Below are positions 31,934-56,493 of a stretch of 61,620 nucleotides of DNA, in pieces. The stretch comes from Minisyncoccota bacterium (lineage in GTDB: Bacteria; Patescibacteriota; Microgenomatia; UBA1400; PJMF01). Each line of letters opens with the position of its first letter. Position 1 is the stretch's first letter. The stretch lies in the NCBI GenBank assembly GCA_003173865.1, contig PJMF01000009.1, forward strand, positions 1 to 61,620, written 5' to 3'. The position numbers and the translations under genes were made by a program. Under the pieces are notes generated by a model. It was not told where the DNA came from. It ran no database searches and saw only the letters and a program-made list of their open reading frames with translations.

Positions 31934-33021
31934 GGGTTAAGTGAAATTTTGCGTTGGTTTTTGGGATTGTTTTTGTTTGAGAAACGCGGCAATAATTTGT
32001 CGTCGTTGAAAGAGTGTGGTGCCACGATGATGGTCGATGTGCCGTTGAATTTGGGCGTTGATGCCACCTTCAATTCGGTTTGAGGTGTTGGGAATTTCTG
32101 GAAAACGAATGTACTGAAACAGGTTGGGGAAGGCATGTTTGAGATGTGAATGTGCCGCATGCAACCGACCGTGCGTGTAATGCCATTTCTGACGTCCAGT
32201 AGGTGTTCGTGAGTCTTGGTACGTTTTCTCTCTGAGAAATGTGTTGTATGCAACGTACCAGTGTTTGTATCTCATGAGCCAGATTTTCAGATCGTTCTGC
32301 GTTCTCACCATCACAATATCACCGACCAGTGCTTTGAATGTTTGTGCGGCGAGGGTTTCAGGATGTTTGGTGAGCAAGATATTGACTTGGTGAATGACAT
32401 GAAACTGACAGCGTTGAATGATGATTCCTGGCCATCGCAGTTTAATCGCTTTGATCATGCCTTTTTGACCATCACAGACAACTGCAAAAGGGAATACAGA
32501 AATCTTTTCACACAGTTCCAACCACGTCAAAAAGTTTTCTGCATACGTAAACAGCCAATTCACGACGTCATTTTTTGTGGATTGGGCAATCAGTACGGTT
32601 GCTCCATACTGCACGTAATACCCATCAATGATGAAAATTTCATCAGCTCCAGAAATACTGTGAGGAAGAATTTCTTGCTCTCGAAATGGTGCAAACCAGT
32701 TATCCAGTGTTCTGCGAGTGACCGCATATTTCTGTGCAAAATCTGAAAGGGTCAGTTTACTCAGTAACCAACTCTCGTACATGTGCCGATGACTTTTTTC
32801 GACGAGATCATCTCTTGTTCTTGTCGTACTTTTCTGACAGGTGAAGCACCGATGTCGTTGTGACCCATTCCTGTTTTTTCCCCACCGTTGCATTGCAGAG
32901 CCGCAGACTGAACATCGTTTTTTTTACGCATTTAATCTCCAAACACATTAATGTGCTGAGATTATATGCTACCAATCAATCTAAAGTGAGAAAAAAACCA
33001 ACGCAAAATTTCACTTAACCC
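31934..33021. mobile_element. Complete insertion sequence, 1088 bp, IS256-superfamily/IS1249-like transposase
   Basis: Perfect 29-bp TIRs GGGTTAAGTGAAATTTTGCGTTGGTTTTT; 8-bp TSD GAAAATAT at 31926-31933 and 33022-33029. Confidence 0.9.
31937..32893 (-). CDS. Transposase (mutator-type DDE)
   Basis: 'FIIDGYYVQYG', 'VCDGQKGMIKAIKLRWPGIIIQRCQFHVIHQVN', 'NRIEGGINAQIQRH'; stop codon lies in the TIR. N-terminus probably extends upstream by frameshift (see findings). Confidence 0.85.
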   Translation of the reverse strand: MQRWGKNRNGSQRHRCFTCQKSTTRTRDDLVEKSHRHMYESWLLSKLTLSDFAQKYAVTRRTLDNWFAPFREQEILPHSISGADEIFIIDGYYVQYGATVLIAQSTKNDVVNWLFTYAENFLTWLELCEKISVFPFAVVCDGQKGMIKAIKLRWPGIIIQRCQFHVIHQVNILLTKHPETLAAQTFKALVGDIVMVRTQNDLKIWLMRYKHWYVAYNTFLREKTYQDSRTPTGRQKWHYTHGRLHAAHSHLKHAFPNLFQYIRFPEIPNTSNRIEGGINAQIQRHIDHHRGTTLFQRRQIIAAFLKQKQSQKPTQNFT

Positions 33022-40339: not shown

Positions 40340-40435
40340 TAGGAATTACACAGGTTTCGAGAGACGACGATTGCACTAGTGTATCTGGAAATACTCACAC
40401 AGCTCTCTACGCTCTCGAAACCTGTGTAATTCCTA
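40340..40435 (+). ncRNA. Conserved long-hairpin RNA element, copy 1
   Basis: Perfect 24-bp arms (40340-40363 / 40412-40435) enclosing core GACGATTGCAC-N14-ATACTCACACAGCTCTC shared with copies 2 and 3. Confidence 0.7.
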
Positions 40436-42948: not shown

Positions 42949-45900
42949 ATGTCTCCATCATCTTCTCTCCCCAAAAAGAAAATGAAGTTTGTCAATCGCA
43001 AACTGACAAAGGGACTCGGTGAAGCCGTTGCCAAGCGCACGATTTTGCGCACAAAGAAAAATGGTGAGCTCGAGACTTGGGAAGATGTGGCCGAGCGCGT
43101 AGCGCGCGGGAACACTTTGTTAATTCCTTCCGATCAACGCAAGCATCGCAAAGAAGAGTTTGAGTTAATGAAAAAGCACATTGCGAATGCGTCGCTTCTG
43201 ATGAGTGGTCGCCATTTACAACACGGTGATGAAACCCAACCAGAGAGAAATATGGAGATTTATACTAATTGCGCAACGGCATCAGCCTCCTATATTTTGT
43301 TTTACTTATTATTAAACGGCTCAGGAGTTGGTCGTGCATATGATGACGACCTTATGGTCACCAACTGGGATAACATGCCAATCATTCGCTGTGTGTTAGA
43401 CGATTCGCACAAAGATTTTGTGTGGGGTGAACATGAAAGTGTACGTGACGCGAAGCACAAATATGCGAAAGGATATTGGTACGAAGTGCCGGATACGCGT
43501 GAAGGTTGGGCGCAAACAATTGAAAAAATTGAGACGATGGCGTACGAGAAAAAATACAAAGATGAAACGTTTATTATCGATTTTTCCCAAGTTCGTCCGC
43601 GTGGATCGATGATCCATGGGATGCAAAATCGCCCGGCTTCTGGACCTCGTCCGTTAATGAACGCGATCGCAAAGCTTTCCACTATTAAAAATGCGGGAAT
43701 GTCTCCTTGGCGCCAAGCTTTATTTATAGACCACTATTTAGCAGAAAGTGTTCTTGTTGGTGGTGCGCGCCGCTCTGCTCGTATTGCTACAAAAACGTGG
43801 ACAGATCCAGAAATTTTTGACTTTATTGCAGTAAAACGCGGTGGCTTTCTATGGTCAGCAAACAACTCGGTCGCAGTTGATGACAAGTTCTGGAAACAAA
43901 AAACAAAACACTCAGAAAAAGTATTAGACGCCGTACTAAAAGCAAGTTATTACGATAAAACTGGTGAACCAGGATTTATTAATCAGCATAAATTTGTGCA
44001 GAACGACGAAGGTTTTGACGGATATTTAGATGGAAAGTTTGCGGAAAGTGCGAAGTACAAACCAGCGCACAAAACCGAGAAGATGCTGTCAGAAATTGCG
44101 CGACATGCATCAACAAAGATTTACACTCAAATTCCCAATCCATGTGGTGAGATTACTTTGAATATGTTGGGTGGCTACTGTGTGATTGCAGATGTGGTGC
44201 CGTACTTTGCGCCCACGGTTGAAGATGCGGAAGAAGCGTTTCGCTTAGCCACTCGCGCCTTAATTCGCGTCAATACGATGGATTGTTTATATAATCGTGA
44301 AGTCAATCGCACTAATCGGATTGGTGTGGGTATGACTGGTCTACATGAGTATGCGTGGAATGCATTTGGGTATGGTTTTCGCGATCTCATTAACGAGAAA
44401 AAAAGTAAAGACTTCTGGATGACCATTGGCCGCTTTAAACGTGCAGTAGTTCAGGAAGCCGAAGAGTACTCAGCTCAATTGGGTGTAGTGACGCCGCATA
44501 CAAACACGACGATCAAACCAGCTGGTTGCCGACCGTGGTACGCATTAACAACCACTAATAAAGGAATTCTAACTTTACAAGAACTTTTTACAAATCATAA
44601 AGAGGGAGAACAATGGAGCATTATGGATGGAGAGTTACAGGCGCTCCAAGACGATGGTAACACAAAACCCCTAACTCGCACATTTGATAATGGCGAAGCA
44701 GAAGTGTTACAAATTCAATTAGCTTATGGATTGACTGTTGAATCAACTAAAAATCATCCATGGTTTGTTAAAGAGCGCGTTTCATCAACGAATAAAAACA
44801 AAACTGTTCCACATAATGATTGGGTCACAACAGAACAAATTCAACCAGGAGATATTTTGGATGTGAAAGTTGGTGTGTATCAAAGTCGTGAACATGCTCT
44901 TCTCAAAACATTGCCAACATTTGCATTACACATGCGAGGCAAATCAAACCCCATTCAGCAGCCGCGAACAATGAATCCCAATTTGGCATGGTTGCTCGGA
45001 TATTTATGGGGAGATGGTGCAATGTCTCCGAGTAAGTATCGTTTGCGATGGTTAGATAGAAACACAGAGAATTTACATAAAGCCAACAAAATTTTTCAAG
45101 AACAATTCGGTATCAGTGGTGAAATTAAACAAGATCCTCACAAAGATGCTCGTTCACTAGAAATTGGCAATATAGAATTATGGCACTGGCTGATTAAAAA
45201 TGATGTTTTTAAGTATCATGCGGCTGTAGTTGATCTCATTCCTCGTGTAATCCGCGAATCATCTCAAGAAGATATCTTAGCATTCATAGCAGGCCTAATT
45301 GATGCTGATGGAGCAGTTGGTTTGGGTAAAACTGATAAAACAGTCACCTTCACTCAAGCAGATTATCGATTTGCACGTCATGTTCAAGATGTTGCATGGA
45401 CAGTAGGACTTGCTTTTGGAATGTCTCACAACACTGTAGGCGAAAATTGGCAACGTAAACGTAAGTCGATGTACCTGCTGACGATGAGTGCGGTTACGAA
45501 GCAAGAAGTGATTCAAACCCTTGTCAAACACAGTAATAAAATGGCGTCAGCAGAAACTTCTGTAGGATCAAAAAGGCTTCCTTGGCGCTGCGATGCGACT
45601 CCACATAAACGTAGGACATTAGGAAAAGTGGAAAGTATAAATAGTTTAGGAATGATGCCTACTTATGACGTAGAAGTTAGTGATAATCATTGGTTCTATG
45701 CTGGAGCTGTGAAATCTCACAACACAACTTCTAAACTGTTCGGTCTCTCCGAAGGCGCCCATTTACCTGCAATGCGTGAGTACATACGCTGGGTGCAATT
45801 TATGAATGAAGATCCGCTGGTTAAAAAATACGAGAAACTAGGCTATCCGACCAAGGAGTTGAAAAGTTACAACGGCACGACCGTGATCGGATTCCCAACT

Positions 45901-46320
45901 CAACCAGAAATTTGTAAGTTGGGCATGAATGGCCAGTTAGTCACTGCGGGTGAGGCTACGCCAGAAGAGCAGTATAAGTGGCTGATGCTTCTAGAAAAAT
46001 ACTGGATTGTTGGTGTTGATGAAAATGGAGAACCACTGGCAGAAGATACGGGGAATCAAGTTTCGTACACACTCAAGTACAATCCGGAAAAGGTAAGCTT
46101 TGCGAAGTTCAAGGAAATGGTGATGAAGTATCAATCGCAAATTAAGTGCTGCAGTGTGATGCCTCAGGTCGATGTGACAGCATATGAATATCAGCCGGAA
46201 GAGCCAGTCACGATCAGTCAGTTTATGCGCGTGCTTCATGAAATTAGCGCAGATGATGCAATTCGCGAAGATATTGATATGGAAACGTTGCAGTGTGCGA
46301 CAGGTGCGTGTCCGATTTGA
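42949..46320 (+). CDS. nrdJ: Class II (B12-dependent) ribonucleoside-triphosphate reductase, intein-containing
   Basis: 'NCATASASYILFYLLLNGSGVGRAYDDD', 'NPCGEITLN', C-terminal 'CATGACPI' redox Cys pair; interrupted by intein. Confidence 0.9.
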   Translation: MSPSSSLPKKKMKFVNRKLTKGLGEAVAKRTILRTKKNGELETWEDVAERVARGNTLLIPSDQRKHRKEEFELMKKHIANASLLMSGRHLQHGDETQPERNMEIYTNCATASASYILFYLLLNGSGVGRAYDDDLMVTNWDNMPIIRCVLDDSHKDFVWGEHESVRDAKHKYAKGYWYEVPDTREGWAQTIEKIETMAYEKKYKDETFIIDFSQVRPRGSMIHGMQNRPASGPRPLMNAIAKLSTIKNAGMSPWRQALFIDHYLAESVLVGGARRSARIATKTWTDPEIFDFIAVKRGGFLWSANNSVAVDDKFWKQKTKHSEKVLDAVLKASYYDKTGEPGFINQHKFVQNDEGFDGYLDGKFAESAKYKPAHKTEKMLSEIARHASTKIYTQIPNPCGEITLNMLGGYCVIADVVPYFAPTVEDAEEAFRLATRALIRVNTMDCLYNREVNRTNRIGVGMTGLHEYAWNAFGYGFRDLINEKKSKDFWMTIGRFKRAVVQEAEEYSAQLGVVTPHTNTTIKPAGCRPWYALTTTNKGILTLQELFTNHKEGEQWSIMDGELQALQDDGNTKPLTRTFDNGEAEVLQIQLAYGLTVESTKNHPWFVKERVSSTNKNKTVPHNDWVTTEQIQPGDILDVKVGVYQSREHALLKTLPTFALHMRGKSNPIQQPRTMNPNLAWLLGYLWGDGAMSPSKYRLRWLDRNTENLHKANKIFQEQFGISGEIKQDPHKDARSLEIGNIELWHWLIKNDVFKYHAAVVDLIPRVIRESSQEDILAFIAGLIDADGAVGLGKTDKTVTFTQADYRFARHVQDVAWTVGLAFGMSHNTVGENWQRKRKSMYLLTMSAVTKQEVIQTLVKHSNKMASAETSVGSKRLPWRCDATPHKRRTLGKVESINSLGMMPTYDVEVSDNHWFYAGAVKSHNTTSKLFGLSEGAHLPAMREYIRWVQFMNEDPLVKKYEKLGYPTKELKSYNGTTVIGFPTQPEICKLGMNGQLVTAGEATPEEQYKWLMLLEKYWIVGVDENGEPLAEDTGNQVSYTLKYNPEKVSFAKFKEMVMKYQSQIKCCSVMPQVDVTAYEYQPEEPVTISQFMRVLHEISADDAIREDIDMETLQCATGACPI
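44527..45723 (+). mobile_element. Intein with LAGLIDADG homing endonuclease (399 aa, in frame)
   Basis: Junctions ..TIKPAG|CRPWYALTTTNKG...DVEVSDNHWFYAGAVKSHN|TTSKLFGL; 'LLGYLWGDGAMS' and 'FIAGLIDADGAVG' motifs; 1197 nt. Confidence 0.95.
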
Positions 46321-46328
46321 TACAGATC

Positions 46329-46430
46329 AGATACACATACTCCAGAAAGACGAGATCGCGCCAGAGTTGGTCGTAGATACTCACGCAGCTCTCAAGTCTT
46401 TCTTTCGTATGTGTATCTTCTCGATTTTTT
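46329..46430 (+). ncRNA. Conserved long-hairpin RNA element, copy 2, with T6 tail
   Basis: AGATACACATAC/GTATGTGTATCT and GAAAGAC/GTCTTTC arms; core GAGATCGCGCC...GATACTCACGCAGCTCTCAA; TTTTTT at 46425-46430. Confidence 0.7.
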
Positions 46431-46468
46431 AAATGAAAATGAAGGCCTTGACGCGAGGTGGGGCTTTT

Positions 46469-56384: not shown

Positions 56385-56476
56385 GAAGGTAGACTCACTT
56401 CGAAAAGACGAGATCGCACCGAAGTCTTCGAAGATACTCACACAGCGCTCAAGTCTTTTCTCAGTGAGCTACCTTC
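56385..56476 (+). ncRNA. Conserved long-hairpin RNA element, copy 3 (groEL 3' UTR)
   Basis: GAAGGTAG/CTACCTTC, CTCACT/AGTGAG and GAAAAGAC/GTCTTTTC arms; core GAGATCGCACC...GATACTCACACAGCGCTCAA. Confidence 0.7.
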
Positions 56477-56493
56477 TTATTAAGAAGTTAATG

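Follow-up and report, generated by a model that had tools for sequence, protein, structure and literature searches.

A conserved-core hairpin family downstream of nrdJ and other genes of a Minisyncoccota bacterium

The nrdJ locus and its hairpin

The window analyzed here is a stretch of 61,620 nt of contig PJMF01000009.1, from a Minisyncoccota bacterium with a genome of 1.2 Mb. On its positive strand lies a gene for a B12-dependent ribonucleotide reductase, nrdJ, facing a convergent tsaD gene, and in the spacer between them a hairpin begins 8 nt downstream of the nrdJ stop codon (Table 1). The nrdJ reading frame carries an intein that contains a LAGLIDADG domain. The arms of the hairpin are paired at 20 of 23 positions and lead into a conserved core. 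Its MFE is -38.4, compared to -21.7 +/- 3.2 in shuffled sequences (fold z of about -5), and by this measure and by the presence of nine full copies in the genome the hairpin is far above chance.

A preliminary description of this locus, made from the letters alone, correctly gave the start of the element, the length of the outer stem (12 bp), the core sequence and the T6 run. The inner stem, described there as 7 bp around a 4x4 internal loop, reads instead as a 3x3 loop followed by 8 bp, and the hairpin itself stops at 46418. The same description pointed to an A-to-G change in the motif GCRC, matched by the same change in CACRCAG, as a hint of a coupled non-canonical contact; the paired change is present, however it is found in the nrdJ copy only and is thus a single event that alone gives no evidence of a contact.

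Table 1. Hairpin copies and associated features, in window coordinates except where a prefix is given.
Feature	Coordinates	Strand	Remarks
Type B copy (40k)	40340..40435	+	Flanked by a 183-aa ORF and a cytidylate-kinase-like gene
nrdJ	42949..46320	+	B12-dependent ribonucleotide reductase with intein
Type A copy after nrdJ	46329..46418	+	12 bp, 3x3 loop, 8 bp, core
Conserved core of the nrdJ copy	46352..46395	+	
T6 run	46425..46430	+	6 nt past the stem of the nrdJ copy; not common to the family
Separate terminator-like site	46441..46468	+	Between nrdJ and convergent tsaD; consensus match only
Type A copy after groEL	56387..56478	+	7 nt past the groEL stop
Core-deleted copy	C26:3355-3403		

Copies, subtypes and placement

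The nrdJ hairpin had been listed as the second copy of a structured RNA family. The family itself is borne out and its extent is larger: three full copies lie inside the window, and a search of the whole genome added six further full copies, for a total of nine with lengths of 90-98 bp, together with one copy from which the core is deleted. A covariance model built from five copies recovers and aligns the remaining four. One base in an internal loop distinguishes two subtypes, type A (the nrdJ, groEL, C11 and C8 copies) and type B (the 40k, C20, C22, C25 and C26 copies).

Sequence conservation is distributed unevenly along the element. Between subtypes, identity is 88% in the core of approximately 45 nt (tip loop excluded) versus 23% in the arms, a value close to chance. 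Type B copies share 61% identity in their arms, suggesting that these are partly inherited. Inside each copy the two arms are nearly fully complementary; counted end to end and with the core-deleted copy included, the arms form 224 Watson-Crick pairs, five A-C pairs and a single G-U pair, and 13 of the 17 outer pairs have changed on both sides. A selected RNA helix is expected to tolerate G-U pairs far more readily than A-C pairs; since G-U is the rarer of the two in these arms, albeit in small numbers, complementarity appears to be kept mainly at the DNA level.

Within 194 kb chosen around the copies, made up of the window and seven further stretches to which the analysis of gene position below is also confined, long hairpins are mostly members of this family. 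Another long hairpin at C11 (L066 134-268, negative strand), with a perfect 25 bp stem and an 85-nt structured tip, immediately follows a 446-aa PEGA-domain ORF of that strand; as a candidate for a further repeat family it was ruled out, being present in a single copy.

Each of the nine full copies has the same orientation as one or more of its neighbouring genes, and seven begin 1-13 nt past a same-strand upstream stop codon. The C25 and C26 copies sit upstream of a gene, the former in a divergent spacer. With ORFs of 90 aa or more serving as gene proxies, the 1-13 nt range accounts for 4.65% of intergenic position-strand states. The placement of seven of nine copies within it has a rough probability near 1.6e-8, a figure to be read in light of a range picked after viewing the data, stretches picked for holding copies, and an ORF preceding the 40k copy that is not a secure gene. 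The conserved core, variable paired arms, sense-strand placement and proximity to stops together support the earlier proposal of a structured family in 3′ UTRs.

The genes that host these copies include housekeeping genes, namely nrdJ, groEL, and mreB-like and trxB-like genes, the latter two named from reading their ORFs. At the groEL locus the stop codon is followed first by the copy and then by a T-run hairpin, which gives the impression of an addition ahead of the ordinary terminator. The C20 copy overlaps, in frame, the beginning of a 415-aa pilin-like ORF (L068 9975-11222) and lengthens its leader; this ORF carries a laminin-G-like domain, and some neighbouring pilin-like ORFs have short leaders.

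Distribution and search for a mobilising enzyme

Covariance model searches (R2) returned no match in 48 other genomes of the taxonomic family, none of them congeneric, nor any beyond the source genome in a 389-genome sample of the phylum to which it belongs as a member; the filters were strict and may lose weak matches. The window copies have no match in Rfam at the gathering score, and at a relaxed score all nine full copies yield nothing meaningful. GTDB genomes and viral contigs were also scanned for sequence patterns, giving 3 and 5 matches that were rejected as none has a family-like fold, and a longer core pattern found no match in the viral contigs. BLAST searches of plasmids and phages gave no match to the hairpin repeat, and the literature surveyed on structured RNAs and palindromic repeats in candidate phyla holds nothing on it.

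In relatives, the orthologous groEL and nrdJ 3′ regions have ordinary short terminators or are without such a core, suggesting that the hairpin is a lineage-specific addition and not an ancestral part of these UTRs. Comparison of orthologous regions was proposed in the preliminary description, which held that plain terminators with no conserved core and no transcript accumulation would count against the element; the absence of the core in relatives bears out part of that outcome. One relative has a long nested hairpin of another kind downstream of groEL (L109), and other genomes of the taxonomic family may own separate stop-proximal hairpin repeats.

A search for Y1 transposases (PF01797), which returned matches in control genomes, found none in this 95% complete genome, in which no reverse transcriptase was detected either, and inspection by eye of the 30-nt flanks of the copies showed no target-site duplication. 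It is therefore only from their dispersal and their restriction to this lineage that mobility is deduced. The window does contain one insertion sequence (31934-33021), in which perfect 29-nt inverted repeats flank a 318-aa Mutator-family transposase ORF, bordered on both sides by an apparent 8-base duplication, GAAAATAT. The ends of the hairpin repeat are unlike those of this sole insertion sequence found in the window.

Interpretation and comparison with known systems

The evidence leans towards the hairpin family being a lineage-specific dispersed palindromic repeat, located in mRNA 3′ ends and endowed with a constrained core, for which the best reading of general kind is that of REP, MITE or RPE repeats. 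Three other explanations were weighed.

The copies could act as cis-acting RNA regulators or protein-binding elements, comparable to a riboswitch or a 3′ UTR regulon, selected gene by gene and with the core binding a protein or ligand. Such a role would fit the constrained core with its conserved internal loops, the changes on both sides of the outer helix, the sense orientation and stop-proximity, and the housekeeping nature of several hosts. However, the arms are almost without G-U pairs, the element is absent from the relatives searched and from Rfam, the core has been lost in one copy, and no pathway common to the hosts is evident, all of which make this explanation doubtful.

A function as an intrinsic terminator or plain stable 3′ end, proposed for the nrdJ copy from its T-run, is very improbable. 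The stems are strong and the nrdJ copy does pair a hairpin with T6, however this run is set off from the stem, and a U-tract directly past the stem is not a feature of the family. Separate terminator-like sites also lie downstream of the nrdJ and groEL copies, and two copies precede a gene instead of following one. Least credible is a small self-cleaving ribozyme or other catalytic RNA with the conserved tip as its core, as the highly conserved internal-loop core atop variable stems might suggest, given that no Rfam ribozyme was matched at the gathering score, none meaningfully at the relaxed score, and no cleavage-site logic was seen.

As a dispersed palindromic repeat, the family would have spread inside the lineage through a DNA-level process, with arm complementarity kept by palindrome correction of the DNA (template switching) more than by selection on an RNA helix. 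The constraint on the core implies that something recognises it, either an enzyme that mobilises the repeat or a partner that binds it as RNA. Copies would be transcribed as the first structure past the stop codon, where they may hold back ribosomes at termination or protect the mRNA against 3′ exonucleases, in the manner of stop-proximal E. coli REPs. Less in line with this reading, the uniform sense orientation and the closeness to stops point to more selection on the RNA than a plain selfish repeat needs. The hairpin may also stabilise 3′ ends. More speculatively, the family may represent a small folded repeat of a new type, conserved at its tip and not in its stem, which is targeted to the few bases after stop codons and whose folded tip is recognised by an enzyme that moves or reads the element; this proposal is put forward only tentatively. 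A repeat with a constrained folded core behind housekeeping stops, in a genome this small, offers a handle on a mobilising enzyme or on translation control at 3′ ends, and within the literature searched little of such kind has apparently been described in this lineage.

Integron attC sites are imperfect palindromes that are read as folded strands, their structure being kept while their sequence varies. The conserved part of the hairpin repeat is at the tip, unlike attC sites, where it is at the base, and its ends do not read as attC core sites.

The Rickettsia palindromic elements (RPE) are lineage-specific stem-loops of 105-146 bp, some of which are found in frame in proteins (PMC2229807). 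The hairpin repeat is likewise a long, dispersed, lineage-specific stem-loop, slightly shorter than the approximately 100-150 bp of the RPEs, and the in-frame C20 copy at the start of the pilin-like ORF may be a further likeness. Unlike RPEs, the repeat lies mostly behind stop codons and not inside genes.

As a dispersed extragenic palindrome in several copies, the hairpin repeat also answers to the description of a REP. It is much longer than the REPs of E. coli, has only nine full copies, is conserved at its tip rather than its stem and, in contrast to REPs with RAYT, resides in a genome in which a Y1 (RAYT-type) transposase was not detected. The two are alike as dispersed hairpins in mRNA 3′ ends, a share of which lie close behind stops (PMC12306157). 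When located no more than 15 nt from a stop codon, REPs are reported to stall ribosomes and to reduce translation (PMC12306157, citing earlier work); such a stop-proximal effect on ribosomes, which may also operate here, is the best functional analogue for the hairpin repeat.
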